Shown one piece after another: positions 6,442 through 49,770 of a stretch of DNA of 49,770 nt (within the stretch, counting starts at the first letter, position 1; every line of letters begins with the position of its first letter). Made by a program: the position numbers and the translations under genes. The notes below the pieces were generated by a model. That model did no database searches. It had not been told where the DNA came from and saw nothing but the letters and a program-made list of their open reading frames with translations. Source of the stretch: Acidobacteriota bacterium (lineage in GTDB: Bacteria > Acidobacteriota > Aminicenantia > JBFLYD01); assembly GCA_040756905.1 (NCBI GenBank), contig JBFLYD010000034.1:1-49770 (forward strand). The letters are read 5' to 3'.

Positions 6442-7476
6442 TTAATAGAAAAATGAGATGCCGGCATAGGCAATTTTTGGAAATTGCCATGCACTTGAAC
6501 CTGCTTTGGAATAAAGAAAACCAATGTGTGTATCTAAATTTTTTGATATGTCATAAGAAAATCTTAAAAAAAGAAAATTTCCGTTACCCGGTGATGTATT
6601 AAAATAACCGAATTGAATTCTTGATAAAGCTGAGATTTGGTAATCTCCAATTATGACGAATACTTTTCCTTTGGGATACAATTCTGATCCGTCGGAAGAG
6701 AAGTATTCTCCAATTAAATAAATTTTTGAGCTCAGCTGGTAATCTGCTCCTATCGAAAGGTCACTCATTAATGATTTTTTTTCTTTTTTGACTGCCAGTT
6801 CTCCTCTAAAAACAAACCTTCCTTTGCTTCCTTCAAAAGCAGCGCCATAAATCATCTCTCCAGTTATTGAAAATATACAAAAGTTTATGTCAGTGTGTCC
6901 ACTTGAGAAGAATACTGCACTTCCATAATAATTTCTTCCATTCCTTCTAACATAAACACTTTCTACCCAGGAAAACCCGGTAAAATAATATTGAATTCTT
7001 AGAGAATTAACGCCTTGTTTTTCTTCTTTTTCTAAGGAGAAAGGGTTGTATGGATTAAACATATCGAGAACTGAAAAAAGCTTAGCCTTTCCCCATGGAA
7101 TTCTTTCTCTTCCCATTCCGAAAATGAATTTTTCTGTTTTATAACTTAGAGAGAGTTTGTCAAAGAAGTGATAAACTTTAAGTTGATTCCCTTTGTAAAG
7201 ATAAAAAGGATTGAGCTCCTCTAAGAGGCTTCCTGTAAAAAGAGAGTAGAATTTTTCGCTTCCATTTAGAGCATTTGTTTCAGAATGGAGTTTGAATGAA
7301 AAAGAGTTCCAGCTTTTTTCAATTTTCAGTCTAAATCTTAAAAGCTGAATGGAAGAAAACTCATTCGAATAATTTAAATAAAACGAATTTACTTTAAAAT
7401 AACCTGATATTGAAGAATAAAGACAGGGAGCAAAAATTAATAGAAAAATACATTTAGCTTTGTATGATTTTACCAT
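6442..7476 (-). CDS. Predicted outer-membrane beta-barrel protein, last gene of the Lol/MacB-like operon
   Basis: The protein has 344 residues with an N-terminal hydrophobic segment (KCIFLLIFAPCLYSSISG). The rest is rich in alternating aromatic and polar residues and ends ...GISFFY, with a terminal aromatic residue typical of barrels inserted by BamA. No exact family is recognised; the barrel call is inference. Its start lies inside the end of the ATPase gene (23-base overlap), so translation is probably coupled. With a LolA-like protein and two FtsX-type permeases in the same operon it could be the outer-membrane partner of an envelope export or lipoprotein-handling system. Confidence 0.6.
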   Translation of the reverse strand: MVKSYKAKCIFLLIFAPCLYSSISGYFKVNSFYLNYSNEFSSIQLLRFRLKIEKSWNSFSFKLHSETNALNGSEKFYSLFTGSLLEELNPFYLYKGNQLKVYHFFDKLSLSYKTEKFIFGMGRERIPWGKAKLFSVLDMFNPYNPFSLEKEEKQGVNSLRIQYYFTGFSWVESVYVRRNGRNYYGSAVFFSSGHTDINFCIFSITGEMIYGAAFEGSKGRFVFRGELAVKKEKKSLMSDLSIGADYQLSSKIYLIGEYFSSDGSELYPKGKVFVIIGDYQISALSRIQFGYFNTSPGNGNFLFLRFSYDISKNLDTHIGFLYSKAGSSAWQFPKIAYAGISFFY

Positions 7477-8125
7477 CCGAAAGCTTTATCACCCTTTTTG
7501 TCATTTTGACTACTCTTTCATCATGGGTTGAAAGAAGGAAAGTGATGTTTTTCTCCTCATTAAGTTTTTTCATTAGCTCAATGAGAATCATGACATTTTC
7601 AGAATCCAAGTTTGCTGTCGGTTCATCTGCAAGAACTATTTTTGGTTCTCCTATTATTGCTCTTGCGACAGCTACTCTTTGCTGTTCTCCTCCACTCAGT
7701 TTTGTGAGGCGTCTGTGGGCAAGCTCTTCCAACCCAACATCTTTCAATGCTTTTAGAACTCTCTTTCTTCTTTCTTTTTTTTCAACTCCTTGAAGGATTA
7801 GCACAAATTCAACATTTTCGAATGCAGTAAGTACAGGAATAAGATTAAAAGATTGAAAGACAAACCCAAGGTTATTAAGCCTTATCTCAGAAAGTTTTTT
7901 TTCTGGAAGAGAAGAAATATCTACCCTATTTAGAATAACTTTTCCTTCAGTTGGTTTGTCTATTCCTCCAAGAAGGTTTAAGAGAGTAGTTTTTCCAGAC
8001 CCAGATGGTCCAACTATTGAGGTAAATTCTCCTTCGTCAATCTTAAGGTTTACTCCATCGATCGCTTTTATAATTCCCCCATCGTGGTAATACTTGCAAA
8101 GGTTAAAAGTCTCTATAATCCTCAT
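7454..8125 (-). CDS. ABC transporter ATP-binding protein, LolD/MacB type
   Basis: The cytoplasmic ATPase energises the two FtsX-like permeases encoded just upstream. At 223 residues it is a single nucleotide-binding domain. Visible motifs are Walker A GPSGSGKTT (residues 39-47), the Q-loop VFQSFNLIP, signature LSGGEQQR, Walker B IVLADEPT and the switch histidine in STHDERV. The motif set and length fit the LolD/MacB/FtsE group rather than substrate importers. It sits 8 bases after the second permease gene and overlaps the barrel gene downstream. Substrate unknown; lipoproteins or other envelope molecules are likely from the LolA-like neighbour. Confidence 0.9.
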   Translation of the reverse strand: MRIIETFNLCKYYHDGGIIKAIDGVNLKIDEGEFTSIVGPSGSGKTTLLNLLGGIDKPTEGKVILNRVDISSLPEKKLSEIRLNNLGFVFQSFNLIPVLTAFENVEFVLILQGVEKKERRKRVLKALKDVGLEELAHRRLTKLSGGEQQRVAVARAIIGEPKIVLADEPTANLDSENVMILIELMKKLNEEKNITFLLSTHDERVVKMTKRVIKLSDGKIIQS

Positions 8126-40709: not shown

Positions 40710-41318
40710 TCAATCAATTACTTTTAATCTAACTTTTCTTTCAAAATAATTTCCCATCATTCCTTCCCCGGGCTTTGCCTTGACAGACTCTCCTTTTGTA
40801 AGCATTACCTGTAAAATCAATTCTGAATCCTGGGCAGAATCAGTGGGTCTGATTGACATTGGAAGAACAGAAACTTTTGCTCCTTCAAGTCCTTCAAATT
40901 CATCACCCACAATTCTACACCCCATCGGTAGATTTACATCCCAACCAGGAGAAAACTTTGAGAGAGAGGTTGTTTCAATAGTATTAGGGTCTACATAAAG
41001 CCATGCATTCCTGTAAGGAGCTTCTATGTTATCCTCCTTTAAGCAACCTATTAATGTGAGCACTGTTTTTATTTTATTTCTCTTTACAGAAATCAAAAAA
41101 CTCCCATCGGGTTGTTTCAAGGACTTATTTGTATCTTTATCCAGGATGTCGATAATAGTTTTTCCATCATCCTTCCATGGACCATTATTTACATGACAGG
41201 AAAGACAGTTCTTTGATTTCCCCAGGATTCCCACAGCTGGTGGATATGAAAATCCCCAATAAGATAATCCTGCTAATAATATTAATAGCATCGGGATTGT
41301 GATTGTCTTTAATTTCAT
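40710..41318 (-). CDS. Secreted protein with a single CXXCH haem site
   Basis: The 202-residue protein has a signal peptide (TITIPMLLILLAGLSYWGFSY) and one c-type haem motif CLSCH at residues 38-42. The rest is beta-rich without further haem motifs (NAWLYVDPNTIETT, KVSVLPMSIRPTDSAQDSELILQVMLTKGESVKA). It resembles cytochrome-c-domain proteins linked to respiratory gene clusters, but no exact family is recognised. It lies about 0.85 kb from the nos locus on the same strand, separated by a broken sensor gene, so an electron-transfer role for NosZ is only possible. Confidence 0.65.
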   Translation of the reverse strand: MKLKTITIPMLLILLAGLSYWGFSYPPAVGILGKSKNCLSCHVNNGPWKDDGKTIIDILDKDTNKSLKQPDGSFLISVKRNKIKTVLTLIGCLKEDNIEAPYRNAWLYVDPNTIETTSLSKFSPGWDVNLPMGCRIVGDEFEGLEGAKVSVLPMSIRPTDSAQDSELILQVMLTKGESVKAKPGEGMMGNYFERKVRLKVID

Positions 41319-41426
41319 TTTTCTTCACCTCCCATGATTTTATTTTATTGATACCATAATTTATCCTTTGTCGACTTTTGTATTTCTGGTTGTTTTATCA
41401 TAAATAGTTTATTTTTTCCAAAGTTT

Positions 41427-41953
41427 TTAATTGAAAATATCAAGAACCTCCCTTACCTTCCTTGCAAGAGCTGATGGAGTAAAAGGCTTTGATAGAAAAT
41501 ATGCCTTGCCCTCAGAAATTTCAGAAAGAGAAATTCTATTATCAGCATATCCAGAGATATATAATACTTTAATTTTAGAATGTATTCGTCTAATCTCCTC
41601 TGCCAATTCAGGACCTTTTTTTTCTGGCAAGATAACATCGCTGATTAGTAAATCTATCTTATCTTTATGGACTTTTGCCTTAAGAATAGCCTCCTCTGCA
41701 TCTGAGGATGAAATCACACTGTATCCTATTATGTGTATTCTTTCTCCCAGGGTGAAGGAAGATCTGTTAAGCGATGTAAATGAAATGTTATCCTCAATGT
41801 GAGCATTCTCTCCCTGCCTGCAAGATTTATTTTCCTTGCTTCTCCTTCAATATGATGTGTAAAAATATACCCTGTAGTTATATAGATGGCAATAAATGTG
41901 AGAGTCAGAATACCTATAAAAATAAATTTTGTGGTTATGGATTTAAGTTTCAA
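41427..41953 (-). pseudogene. Remnant of a hybrid sensor kinase with its middle deleted
   Basis: The N-terminal piece (41729-41953, 74 codons) has one helix (FIFIGILTLTFIAIYITTGYIF) and then GEARKINLAGRERMLTLRI, the start of a PilJ/nitrate-type sensor domain, and stops. In another frame the sequence continues TLGERIHIIGYSVISSSDAEEAI and the C-terminal two-thirds of a response-regulator receiver: DLLISDVILPEKKGPELAEEI, VLYISGYAD and FLSKPF with the switch lysine. The sensor end, histidine kinase and receiver start are missing, and the join near 41715-41770 shifts frame. It is dead as a kinase. As the PilJ-type N-terminus recalls nitrate/nitrite sensors, it may once have regulated the neighbouring nos genes. 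Confidence 0.7.
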
Positions 41954-42080
41954 CTTCCTTTACCTTTTTAAATATTTCTAAAATTCCTTCCTTTTATTTA
42001 CATATAATATAATATAAAAGAAATACATTAGTAAAAGCTAAAAATAAATATACAGAAGGGAAGACTTTATCCTTCCGAAA

Positions 42081-42168: not shown

Positions 42169-44052
42169 TCATCCTCCGAATAGCCAGTGGAAAAATACGC
42201 TCAATCCTATTAAAAATATCAGTATGGGAATCCAGCCTCTTTTTGCCTCTTTTTCATTGGAATATGTTATCCTCGAAAGTTTGTGCCCAAACTCCAGGGC
42301 AAATATCAATCCTAAAATTAAAATACCTGTTTGAAGATAAGACATGGTTCCGGTGAGGACAGGAGTCCATGCAAAATTTGCCGTTTTGAATAAGTTCCAT
42401 CCAAACGCATAGGGGTCAGATACAACATGGAGAAGATAGCTCCCGTTTGGCAAAATAACACCAAGGCTGAATGCTATCCATCTTGCAATACCAATCGGAA
42501 CGAGGCAGTAGGAGAAATTTACAAAAACTTTTTTCAAAGATATCTCTTTATTTCCACTCATTTTCTTTGAAAGATAGGAGAATATAAAAAACAATCCAGG
42601 GATAAACGCAAGGCAGAGCAATGAATAAATCGGTAAATAAGCCAGATATCCTGTAAAATTATGGGCTCTTACTATATCCTTAACCCATCCCCATGGTCCC
42701 TGCATTGCTATGTAGAACATAATCACAGCTCCAACCATGATGAAACTTTTGAATGCCTCATCCAAACCCCGTCTGTTATACACATCATCTGTTCGTTTTC
42801 GCTCCACGAAGAAATCCTTTGCAGGAGTTCTGAGGTTAAAAGCCATATTATCGTAAGGACAACTCTTAAAACATTCCATACATAAGCCGCAGTATGTGTT
42901 GCGATTCATATCATAGGGAAGTTCCATCCATGGGCATCCATAGCCGTTTTCATTGCCCACATAGCATGTTTTTGGTGTATGATTTTTACAGATATCAGGG
43001 TCTTTAACCCTGACCTCAACTGAACCAAAATTTGAATAAAGCCCCTGAAACCCGCTCACAGGGCAGAAAAAAAGACAGAATGTTCTTTTTTCGTATATGA
43101 GTGAAATAACTATTGCTCCTATGATAATTATTCCTAAAAGAATAAAGTTTGCGATGGGCATTACAGTAAAAAAACCTGAAAAAAATGTTGCCACTAAAAA
43201 GATTATATTTGTTGGCCATAGATTACGAAGGCGATTGGGCCATCTCTTGTTCAATCCAAAAAGCTTTTTTCTTCTCACTCCTATGATTTTCAATCTCTGG
43301 AGCCATTCGCCAAAAACAGGAAGAGGACATACCATGCACCAGATTCTTCCAAAGAAAGGAACCATGATTATCATAAGAAGAACCCACCAGAGAATCCATA
43401 CGATCATAATTCCAAAATTATAATTACCAGCACCTATTCCACCGGTCCACCCGGCCACGAGAATTACTGTGAAAATGAAAATGTTTATAAGGATTGGTAC
43501 AAAGGGAAACCAGCGATTTTTGAGAAAATTACGAACTCCTTTATAGTTTGTCAGTTCGAATTTCCAGTTCAGAGGTATTGATTTAAAGAGTTTATTCTCA
43601 GGGTTTCCTATCTTTTTTCTTGTGATGATTAATGAGCCAATTCCAAGGAGAAATATCGTTAGCAATCCTACGTGGAACTTTCGATTCGGTAGAACTTTTA
43701 AATATCCAATCATGTAAGGATGAAATGAACCACAGGTAACTGAACATCGAAAAGAAAATCTGCCTGTTTTGTTTGCCCTAAAAATTGTACTTCTTGTCTC
43801 GCCTGGGTTAACAAAAAAATCAACTCCATATCCATCGAGAAAGAACCCATGAGTAACATCCTCACTCGTGAGTTTAAGAACAACTAAATCTCCTTTATTT
43901 ACTGTGATAATGTTCGGAGAATAGGAGAATTTTTTTGCTTTTATCTCTATAACTTTTTCTTTGCCGGTTGTGGCGTACACATATGAGCCAAAGAAAATTG
44001 GCATGAATAATATTAATAAAGCAAAAGTTAATATAGGAAAAAACCTCTTCAT
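42169..44052 (-). CDS. CuA-type cupredoxin fused to a NosR/NapH-like membrane polyferredoxin
   Basis: Start chosen at the ATG 44050-44052: GGAGGG precedes it, it overlaps the upstream stop as ATGA, and a signal peptide follows (RFFPILTFALLILFMPIFFGSY). 627 residues. Residues 28-120 form a cupredoxin with all CuA ligands: H68, C103, C107, H111, M114 (CSVTCGSFHPYM), at the same 35-residue H-to-C spacing as NosZ. Then come several helices and iron-sulfur motifs GRIWCMVCPLPVFGEW, FCLFFCPVSGFQGLY and CGLCMECFKSCP, as in NosR/NapH. Classical NosR has a periplasmic FMN domain instead. It probably takes electrons from the quinone pool or cytoplasm and delivers them through CuA to NosZ. It is the last intact gene of the nos run. 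Confidence 0.85.
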   Translation of the reverse strand: MKRFFPILTFALLILFMPIFFGSYVYATTGKEKVIEIKAKKFSYSPNIITVNKGDLVVLKLTSEDVTHGFFLDGYGVDFFVNPGETRSTIFRANKTGRFSFRCSVTCGSFHPYMIGYLKVLPNRKFHVGLLTIFLLGIGSLIITRKKIGNPENKLFKSIPLNWKFELTNYKGVRNFLKNRWFPFVPILINIFIFTVILVAGWTGGIGAGNYNFGIMIVWILWWVLLMIIMVPFFGRIWCMVCPLPVFGEWLQRLKIIGVRRKKLFGLNKRWPNRLRNLWPTNIIFLVATFFSGFFTVMPIANFILLGIIIIGAIVISLIYEKRTFCLFFCPVSGFQGLYSNFGSVEVRVKDPDICKNHTPKTCYVGNENGYGCPWMELPYDMNRNTYCGLCMECFKSCPYDNMAFNLRTPAKDFFVERKRTDDVYNRRGLDEAFKSFIMVGAVIMFYIAMQGPWGWVKDIVRAHNFTGYLAYLPIYSLLCLAFIPGLFFIFSYLSKKMSGNKEISLKKVFVNFSYCLVPIGIARWIAFSLGVILPNGSYLLHVVSDPYAFGWNLFKTANFAWTPVLTGTMSYLQTGILILGLIFALEFGHKLSRITYSNEKEAKRGWIPILIFLIGLSVFFHWLFGG

Positions 44053-44807
44053 TTTCCCTCCAGAGTTAAGGTTCTTAAAATTGAAATGGATTTTCTTGAA
44101 AAACTTTCCATCTTTATTCCATCCCAAACAGCAAAAGCTATGTTTTTATCTGTACCAGGTTTAAATTCAAATTCACCTTCCTGGTTGCTTTTTAGATCTC
44201 TTTTAAAGACCACTGCCCACTTTCCATCTTTGTGCATTCCTCTTCCTTCTACGTTCTGGTTTTCCATAGGAGTTTGTGTTCCAGGACCATGAGCTATTAA
44301 TTCACGAACTGTTTTTATAGATTCATTACCTTTTTGATATTTTTCTGTATCTCTATCTGCAAGCCACTGCCAGACATTTGCCTTACTCCCATAGCCCATC
44401 ATCTGTGCTGTGGCAGGGCCATCATTTGGAACAAATAATATGGCACAGGCGTCAGGATTAACCGGACCTCCCCTATCTTCTGTTTCATCATAAAATTCTA
44501 AAAGGAATGCAATTTCTCTATCGTTGTATAAAGCCTTGACCAGGAGTTCTTTCTCTGAATTTCCATAGGGAATCCGGGCTGATTGAGGATAGAGGTGTAT
44601 TTTTGTAAAATCTGCACTCTTCCATACTTCAGAGATCGGGTTAACGGAAATACTTTCTTCAGTATATCCTACATTCAGATTTTTTTTACCTTCTATTGAT
44701 GCTGAGGGAGGAGGTATATTTAAACGATGTGCTATAAGGAAATATCCTCCTACAGCAATTAGAATAACTGTAAAAATCATTATTGCGTTGAAAAATGGTT
44801 TTTTCAT
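44049..44807 (-). CDS. Ethylbenzene dehydrogenase gamma-type haem-binding protein
   Basis: The 252-residue protein has one N-terminal helix (FNAIMIFTVILIAVGGYFLIA) and an extracytoplasmic beta domain. VKALYNDREIAFLLEFYDETEDRG, PDACAILFVPNDG, YGSKANVWQWLADRDTE and the C-terminal AFAVWDGIKMESFSRKSIS are typical of the EB_dh family, which holds haem b with Met and Lys ligands in type II DMSO reductase-like enzymes. Related membrane-anchored proteins occur near respiratory oxidoreductases. Here it overlaps both neighbours by 4 bases, so it is most likely a haem protein of the NosZ electron path. Haem ligands were not assigned. Confidence 0.75.
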   Translation of the reverse strand: MKKPFFNAIMIFTVILIAVGGYFLIAHRLNIPPPSASIEGKKNLNVGYTEESISVNPISEVWKSADFTKIHLYPQSARIPYGNSEKELLVKALYNDREIAFLLEFYDETEDRGGPVNPDACAILFVPNDGPATAQMMGYGSKANVWQWLADRDTEKYQKGNESIKTVRELIAHGPGTQTPMENQNVEGRGMHKDGKWAVVFKRDLKSNQEGEFEFKPGTDKNIAFAVWDGIKMESFSRKSISILRTLTLEGK

Positions 44808-45415
44808 GATCTATTCCTCGCGTTTTTTACTGTTTTCCTCTTAAATGAAAAAATCCACTGACCAGAAGAGGCATAGAAAGTTAAAATTGTGGAAGTTACA
44901 AATAAAATGGAACCCAGATGGGGAAGATGATAGATTTTTATCTTGCTTATTTTTGTCATTCCGATCAAAGGAGGAGTAAAGGGCTTTGCAACATTCCTTA
45001 AAGGTGCTTTTGGGTCTAAATTATGTCCTGCTTGATAGAGTCTGTATTGGGCCCAGAGAGCGAGTGAAATACCGGTTACAATGAGGGAAATGCTTACAAT
45101 TTTCTTCCACTTCCCACTCCTAAAGGCTGATATGAAAGTAAACATTCCAAGAATTACAACAATTATTGCAATTATTTTAAGGTCAAGCTCTGGAAGATTA
45201 GGTTCAACATTTATTCCGATGTATCTTCCCACCACTTTCCATTCTTGCACATCACCCTTTATCCCATATGTGTAAAGAAACATTTTAGGGCTTCTATCTG
45301 GATATTGAGGAGAAGTAAATATAATAAATAGATATGGGAAAAAAAGTGAGAAGAATAGAAATCCGCTTGCGATAAACGCAGCAATTTTTTTAAATTTTAT
45401 CGAGCCTAACTTCAT
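44804..45415 (-). CDS. Four-helix membrane protein of the nos locus, function unknown
   Basis: The 203-residue protein has four predicted helices at about residues 10-35, 80-95, 107-123 and 165-182. Its first extracytoplasmic loop contains SPKMFLYTYG and its second YQAGHNLDPKAPLRNVAKPFTPPLIGMTKI then HLPHLGSI; histidines there could bind haem or copper. No family is recognised. A NosB-like role has been considered only from position. It is coupled to the EB_dh gene by a 4-base overlap. Two palindromic repeats separate it from the TlpA-like gene. Confidence 0.65.
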   Translation of the reverse strand: MKLGSIKFKKIAAFIASGFLFFSLFFPYLFIIFTSPQYPDRSPKMFLYTYGIKGDVQEWKVVGRYIGINVEPNLPELDLKIIAIIVVILGMFTFISAFRSGKWKKIVSISLIVTGISLALWAQYRLYQAGHNLDPKAPLRNVAKPFTPPLIGMTKISKIKIYHLPHLGSILFVTSTILTFYASSGQWIFSFKRKTVKNARNRS

Positions 45416-48809: not shown

Positions 48810-49478
48810 CTATCCCCTCCTTTCTTTTAATAGATAGTTAATATCTTTGGTAATGATTTCTTCCGGGTCAACAAGTCCTACATACCTGTATCTGATAAGT
48901 CCTTGTCTATCGATTAAAACAACCATATAACTGTGATAAACAAGGTCTGAATCCTGTTTTGTTTTTACAAAAACCCGATAATTGTCCCATGTTTCTTTCA
49001 ATTGAGATTCAGTTCCAGTTAAAAAGTGCCATCTTCCTTCATAGCCTTTAGTATAATAAGCTATTCTCTCTGGCGTATCCCTTTGCGGGTCAGTGGTAAT
49101 TAAAATCAGAGTCAAATCTTTATCGATTACATCCTTGAACTCTTTTTGGATCCGGCGAAAGTGCAATGTGAGGATTCCACACACATCAGGACAGTTTGTG
49201 TATATAAAACCTATCAGAACCAATTTTCCTCTGAAGTCTTTAAGGGAAGTGGGGGAATTATTCATATCTATTAGATTAAAATTAAATGCTTCCTTTGGCT
49301 CAAGAAGCTCTATTCTATCAACCACTCTTTTACCCGCAACTTCAGGATTTTCAATAGCTGGATGTTCAAAGAAATGAGTTTGGCTTTCCTGGCTTTTTGT
49401 TGAGTTAAAGATAATTTTTACAGCTAAAGTGATAACCACAATGGAAACCAATGTTAAAATAATTAAATATTTTTTCAT
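48810..49478 (-). CDS. SCO1/SenC-type copper chaperone
   Basis: The 222-residue thioredoxin-fold protein is anchored by one N-terminal helix. It has the copper-binding C96-x3-C100 (YTNCPDVCGIL) and the conserved histidine in LVYHSYMVVLIDRQG. SCO proteins insert copper into CuA sites of cytochrome oxidase subunit II, and homologues serve NosZ. With three or more CuA domains in this locus, CuA assembly is the natural role. It lies 1 base before the CuA lipoprotein gene. Confidence 0.93.
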   Translation of the reverse strand: MKKYLIILTLVSIVVITLAVKIIFNSTKSQESQTHFFEHPAIENPEVAGKRVVDRIELLEPKEAFNFNLIDMNNSPTSLKDFRGKLVLIGFIYTNCPDVCGILTLHFRRIQKEFKDVIDKDLTLILITTDPQRDTPERIAYYTKGYEGRWHFLTGTESQLKETWDNYRVFVKTKQDSDLVYHSYMVVLIDRQGLIRYRYVGLVDPEEIITKDINYLLKERRG

Positions 49479-49519: not shown

Positions 49520-49644
49520 TTATTTTATAACTAAGGTGCCTCTCATCTGCATATGATAATCTCCGCACCATAGAGAGCAATAGAATGGATATTCTCCTTT
49601 TTTATCTGCAAAAAACCTAACTCTTTTTACTTCACCAGCTTTAA
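49520..49644 (-). pseudogene. 3' remnant of a CuA-type cupredoxin gene, cut by the IS
   Basis: About 41 native codons remain: KAGEVKRVRFFADKKGEYPF, then YCSLWCGDYHMQMRGTLVIK. The CuA core C-x3-C-x3-H-x2-M is complete, and the sequence resembles the end of NosZ and of cytochrome oxidase subunit II. The upstream part of the frame (MGGHFQSESVAGLNRNRWPL) is insertion-sequence DNA, so the gene's 5' part is lost or lies beyond the element. It was the first visible gene of the nos run, 41 bases before the SCO1 gene. Confidence 0.75.
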
Positions 49645-49770
49645 TGTATATTCCGATCCAAAGTGGCCATCGATTCCGATTCAAACCGGCCACTGATTCT
49701 GATTGAAAGTGGCCACCCATTCCGATTTATTCCGGCCACTTTTTCGATGAAATCAGAATTTGAAAAAGTT
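49645..49770. mobile_element. Terminal end of an IS21-type insertion sequence (partial, runs off the window)
   Basis: The element starts with TGTATATTCCGATCC. Four tandem imperfect 23-base units begin at 49650, 49673, 49696 and 49719, each like ATTCCGATTCAAACCGGCCA. Two such units occur at the left window edge in opposite reading, so the two edges look like the two different ends of one element type. Multiple subterminal repeats and TG...CA tips fit IS21-family ends. No transposase gene is included. Confidence 0.65.

Follow-up and report, generated by a model that had tools for sequence, protein, structure and literature searches.

A CuA cupredoxin fused to a NapH/NosR-like polyferredoxin in a nos operon of Aminicenantia, a candidate quinol-dehydrogenase-type electron outlet to NosZ

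The window, the whole 49,770-nucleotide stretch of DNA analysed here, carries at its end a nos operon encoding, in same-strand order, an IS-interrupted CuA protein, SCO1, a CuA cupredoxin, NosZ, a TlpA-like protein, a NosB-like protein, an EB_dh-type gamma subunit, and a protein in which a CuA cupredoxin domain is fused to a polyferredoxin. The features of the region are as follows:

40710..41318, reverse strand: monoheme c-type protein (CLSCH), 202 aa, no Pfam family
42169..44052, reverse strand: CuA cupredoxin - NapH/NosR-like polyferredoxin fusion, 627 aa
44049..44807, reverse strand: EB_dh family gamma (heme b) subunit, 252 aa (Pfam EB_dh, E=4e-27; TIGR03477, E=2e-32)
44804..45415, reverse strand: NosB-like membrane protein, 203 aa
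45650..46267, reverse strand: TlpA/ResA-like thiol-disulfide protein, 205 aa
46350..48263, reverse strand: NosZ, clade-II-like nitrous-oxide reductase, 637 aa
48302..48808, reverse strand: CuA-type cupredoxin, 168 aa; CPVFCGVNHPWM
48810..49478, reverse strand: SCO1/SenC copper chaperone, 222 aa (Pfam SCO1-SenC, E=2e-28)
49520..49650, reverse strand: 3' fragment of another CuA cupredoxin, CSLWCGDYHMQM; its 5' half lies on contig C14
49650..49770, no strand assigned: terminus of a multicopy IS with 23-bp repeats, in which the contig ends

The NosZ of this operon matches TIGR04246 (E=5e-150; 500 bits against a cut-off of 625), shows, when aligned to solved NosZ, every one of the seven histidines of CuZ as well as a CuA site of its own, and is divergent, sharing no more than 42% identity with any other NosZ protein sampled in the phylum. 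Homologs of the NosB-like protein adjoin NosZ in sampled acidobacterial NosZ loci, and in Thermomicrobium and Haloferax the homolog is flanked by nosZ and nosD. The gamma subunit also aligns to NXR-C and EbdC structures, with a Met and a Lys aligned at the EbdC heme-ligand positions. Membership of the monoheme c-type protein, downstream of the fusion, in the operon is uncertain. A decayed sensor fragment at 41400-41980 (reverse strand) shows, by eye, a NarX/PilJ-like stretch, after which comes a response-regulator receiver ORF (41427-41717).

The fusion gene starts with an ATG at 44052, with GGAGGGAAA directly before the start codon, and its start overlaps the stop of the upstream gamma-subunit gene by 4 bp. 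The encoded protein comprises a signal peptide (residues ~1-27), a CuA domain (~31-121) and a first TM helix (124-145), followed by nine further TM helices and a cytoplasmic Fe-S region (~235-425), and positive-inside loop charges place the CuA domain outside and the Fe-S region inside. The CuA ligand set (H68, C103, C107, H111, and M114) has a spacing of 35-4-4-3, which is also that of Pseudomonas stutzeri NosZ (H583-C618-C622-H626-M629). Residues 31-122 resemble the CuA domains of both NosZ and cytochrome oxidase, matching the NosZ CuA models TIGR04246 (E=3e-15) and TIGR04244 (E=1e-11) and, by sequence, Thermus-based CuA structures (E=5e-13). As judged from these alignments, the ligand match to CuA cupredoxins is far above chance, and copper binding by the domain is putative. 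Residues 180-627 contain two stretches of Pfam Fer4_5 and a weak NapH match, and the membrane part has no sequence match among solved structures. An AlphaFold model built with 44 homologs (pLDDT 88.8, pTM 0.90) presents a signal helix, a beta-barrel and ten TM helices, and its cupredoxin part matches solved CuA domains. An earlier note on this DNA had described a single protein at 42169-44052 with a full CuA ligand set joined to helices and 4Fe-4S motifs, and its coordinates and residues are borne out, as are the joined motifs, by the Fer4_5 stretches and the invariant cysteines.

Both redox parts are strongly conserved among relatives. C103, C107, H111, and M114 are invariant in 78/78 sequences, and H68 is kept in all 76 sequences readable at that position. 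Eleven Fe-S cysteines are invariant across the 44 homologs, namely C239/C242 (CxxCP), C326/C330 (CxxxCP), C355, C363, C373, and C388/391/394/398, and the TM helices contain no conserved histidine that could bind a bridging heme. The CuA ligands are lost in the cupredoxin domain of two fused relatives (L049:5382-7304 and L048:8887-10779).

The IS terminus that makes up the final ~120 bases of the window terminates many further contigs as well (92 matches, against none in the control), and the multicopy element is putatively IS21-like. The interrupted CuA gene continues with its 5' half at the end of contig C14, beside the other IS terminus, and a 7-bp repeat (TTAAAGC) flanks the insertion on both sides. 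Expression of the nos operon is uncertain, because the CuA gene interrupted by the IS is its first. Directly upstream of the interrupted gene, on C14, lies an Rrf2-family regulator with three cysteines (L213:19077-19520) and a weak match to the NO-sensing NsrR. The genes beyond this regulator do not resemble nos genes, and there is therefore no nosD or nosL on either side of the operon. NosD and NosL are normally tied to CuZ assembly. With both operon sides read, neither NosL nor a true NosD was found in the window genome (97.82% completeness), and the window NosZ may for this reason be inactive. The NosD candidate encoded in the genome is a generic beta-helix protein (37 bits against a cut-off of 300), and ABC ATPase matches to NosF/NosD-fusion queries, at 7463-8125 of the window and on contig C14, were taken as generic.

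FMN_bind was likewise detected neither in the fusion protein nor elsewhere in this 97.8%-complete genome, and therefore no NosR or NosR-type flavin route was detected. The genome context, together with the NosZ operon, thus agrees with the proposal of the earlier note that CuA occupies the periplasmic N-terminal place held in NosR by FMN. The window contains no NapG-like gene. Other molybdopterin enzymes are encoded in the genome, with no close homolog of the NarG-like alpha subunit discussed below, and sets of Rieske, cytochrome b and multiheme c genes are present that may feed electrons to NosZ. COX1 matches appear to be small COX1/NorB-like membrane proteins and not an oxidase with a CuA subunit. 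A plasmid search returned no match spanning 80% of the query.

Relatives of the fusion protein (80 named relatives and 11 other loci, a few duplicates included) come from the Omnitrophota, Planctomycetota, Desulfobacterota, Chloroflexota, Acidobacteriota, Methanoperedens, Eisenbacteria, and others. The CuA-polyferredoxin fusion is in frame in 33 of these 91 loci, across several phyla, and in most non-fused loci a CuA gene lies just upstream of the polyferredoxin gene. Among the 142 genomes of the class, one other, an Aminicenantes MAG, encodes the fusion protein (58%), which assigns the window to this class within the Acidobacteriota. Acidobacterial relatives of 800-1000 residues fall outside the group and have no CuA motif. 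Close relatives are found mostly in operons ordered MoA-FeSB-TorD-gamma-(SCO1)-CuA-polyferredoxin-CuA, that is, with a NarGH-like enzyme, and other neighbours include a Rieske_3/molybdopterin enzyme, CuA-cytochrome c proteins and a copper ATPase. The reading of NosZ as the dedicated partner of the family is not supported, since NosZ accompanies none of the 80 named relatives within the fetched flanks (at most 10 kb a side, many contigs being shorter). In a second acidobacterial genus, genome G069 carries an unfused module in the order CuA-polyferredoxin-CuA-NosZ-NosB-NosD/F, with NosL, and two congeneric genomes (G095 and G107) also keep the polyferredoxin adjoining NosZ, for a total of three genomes.

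In a quick tree, in which L049, L165, and L166 form long branches of unsure placement and from which NosR was left out as too distant to place, the window protein groups with seven other fused proteins (support 99), and these eight fall within a larger NarGH-type clade that has 37 members (support 100). Of the seven companions, at least four (L061, L064, L065, and L124) lie in Mo-enzyme operons, and the simplest reading of this pattern is that the window module changed partner from a Mo enzyme to NosZ. Where branches are well supported, the distribution of fused and split forms calls for five or more changes, and fusion or fission therefore occurred repeatedly. The window fusion more likely arose by the joining of a CuA-TM gene to a nine-TM NapH-like gene. 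The polyferredoxin of the G069 genus branches outside the 37-member clade, and its NosZ pairing thus arose separately; NosZ hence seems to have gained CuA-polyferredoxin wiring at least twice.

The closest described counterpart of this module is the nar operon of Methanoperedens, in which a nine-TM NapH protein lies between two HCO II proteins, with NarGHJ and Orf7 (Arshad et al., 2015; PMC4683180), and which was mentioned again in 2026 (PMC13079737). Methanoperedens and the window share a CuA protein, a nine-TM NapH-like protein, a second CuA and a gamma subunit, and the Methanoperedens CuA and polyferredoxin are ~53-59% identical to the corresponding parts of the window protein. In Methanoperedens, however, CuA and NapH-like protein are two genes and the module accompanies NarGH, whereas in the window they are one gene, the module adjoins NosZ in an operon without a NarGH-like Mo enzyme, and one further CuA gene of the module is IS-interrupted. 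The Fe-S core is also shared with E. coli NapH (profile match 95% over 91 columns), but that protein has four TM helices, no CuA and a NapG partner, while the fusion has ten TM helices. FMN_bind - NapH-like proteins have an extracytosolic redox domain, fused or split, and varied partners (Meheust et al., 2021; PMC8238504); their fusions share the N-terminal redox-domain layout of the window protein, carrying FMN instead of CuA, and this analog, which occurs both fused and split, shows that NapH-like proteins are modular. In Wolinella, the clade II NosG/C1/C2/H and NosB system (Hein et al., 2017, cited in PMC11409646) likewise combines Fe-S donors of NapH type with a NosZ linked to NosB, and has cytochromes c and ferredoxins in place of CuA.

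Architecture, ligand conservation, operon, ancestry, and the lack of detectable NosR or FMN_bind can all be read from the sequences, and together they suggest that the fusion is probably a quinol-dehydrogenase-type membrane module re-used for NosZ, with CuA as its periplasmic electron outlet. The source module would have consisted of the gamma heme-b subunit, CuA, the nine-TM NapH-like protein and a second CuA, as found in periplasmic NarGH-like operons, and the covalently attached CuA domain would replace FMN (in NosR) or NapG (in Nap) as electron outlet. Quinol oxidation with outward electron transfer is the accepted role of NapH and NosR (PMC8238504). We infer, by extension, quinol oxidation, an order of carriers and NosZ as acceptor: electrons would pass from menaquinol to the membrane Fe-S protein and its CuA, from there to the soluble CuA and/or the gamma heme b, and then through the NosZ CuA to CuZ and N2O. 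A direct iron-sulfur to copper route, as first suggested for this protein, is doubtful, because the membrane separates the two sites and its TM helices hold no conserved histidine, so that an electron jump between them is unlikely without an intermediate, for which quinol would be the natural candidate. Several observations speak against the quinol-dehydrogenase reading: the long gap between CuA and the Fe-S region, on opposite faces, the rarity of NosZ linkage, the IS in the first CuA gene of the operon, the failure to find NosD and NosL, and the Rieske, cytochrome b and multiheme c sets as another possible source of electrons for NosZ. At a more general level, we see even chances that the CuA-NapH-like module is a membrane-to-periplasm outlet parallel to the FMN outlet, separately recruited by NarGH-like enzymes, NosZ and perhaps others, which here would fully replace NosR and serve a NosZ perhaps matured without NosD and NosL.

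Part of this evidence could also be accommodated by a role in copper homeostasis or assembly, in which the CuA-like domain would store copper or pass it to NosZ and the soluble CuA proteins, with the Fe-S part acting as a source of reductant alongside SCO1 and TlpA. Both of the latter are encoded in the operon, several relatives have TlpA or SCO1 nearby, a chloroflexotal relative adjoins an HMA protein and a P-type ATPase, and copper delivery must differ here, given that no NosD or NosL was found. Such a role is nevertheless unlikely, as nearly all relatives retain the full CuA set, the topology of the fusion is of NosR type, and most close relatives lie in operons of Mo enzymes whose catalytic subunits have no need for copper. 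Retention of the gamma subunit, a NarGH-like enzyme as ancestral partner and the other molybdopterin enzymes of the genome would instead fit a module that merely adjoins nosZ and serves a different acceptor, such as a gamma-linked enzyme encoded elsewhere; the lack of a close homolog of the ancestral alpha subunit, the tight operon with NosZ-NosB and the separate NosZ-module pairing in another genus make this quite improbable.

The initial proposal of a CuA-for-FMN swap in NosR fares considerably worse. The position and topology of the fusion are equal to those of NosR, and a profile comparison does detect NosR, with a match limited to the shared Fe-S/TM core. The two proteins share a periplasmic redox domain, TM helices, the CxxCP/CxxxCP motifs, cytoplasmic 4Fe-4S motifs and location in a nos operon, but NosR (Pseudomonadota) has FMN_bind where the fusion has CuA, and the fusion, unlike NosR, continues beyond the Fe-S region with five more TM helices. 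The polyferredoxin, however, falls in the NarGH-type NapH-like clade, in a tree without NosR, and pairwise BLAST returns no similarity to the canonical NosR of C. necator. A fusion rather than a swap is further indicated because the CuA partners are unfused in most relatives, and a NosR variant is accordingly very improbable. Merging of two genes by misassembly or gene calling, conceivable in a fragmented MAG with contigs ending in IS copies, has a negligible probability in view of the recurrence of the same in-frame fusion in the 33 loci, its presence in independent assemblies at 53-62% identity, and a joint with no IS nearby.

The earlier note would have been refuted by a fusion both common and already characterised; fusions proved fairly common, and none was found characterised. 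In the open-licence literature, covered in part, no report of a CuA or cupredoxin domain fused to NapH or NosR was found. The unfused CuA/NapH-like pair is already known from Methanoperedens (2015); as far as that literature shows, the fused form, its spread over several phyla and its use by NosZ appear to be new, and so does a NosZ operon that has CuA and SCO1 while NosR, NosD and NosL are undetected. The module, widespread and found mostly with nitrate-reductase-like enzymes, may thus represent a second wiring for an enzyme that destroys a greenhouse gas, and a membrane-tied CuA offers a concrete candidate route from quinol to NosZ for clade II reducers without NosR or cytochrome c. CuA-polyferredoxin could also serve as a search marker for N2O-reduction operons missed by NosR-based surveys, and a single membrane module appears to be transferable across enzyme types, here one with molybdenum and one with copper.

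Two further loci show the CuA-polyferredoxin pair in other company. A paralog in the same genome (L031:12355-15870), with no evident terminal reductase nearby, consists of a CuA gene, a polyferredoxin gene (45% identity), a CuA-cytochrome c fusion and SCO1. At L097:7532-8971, directly after a CuA-polyferredoxin pair, a CuA domain is fused to a multicopper-oxidase domain.
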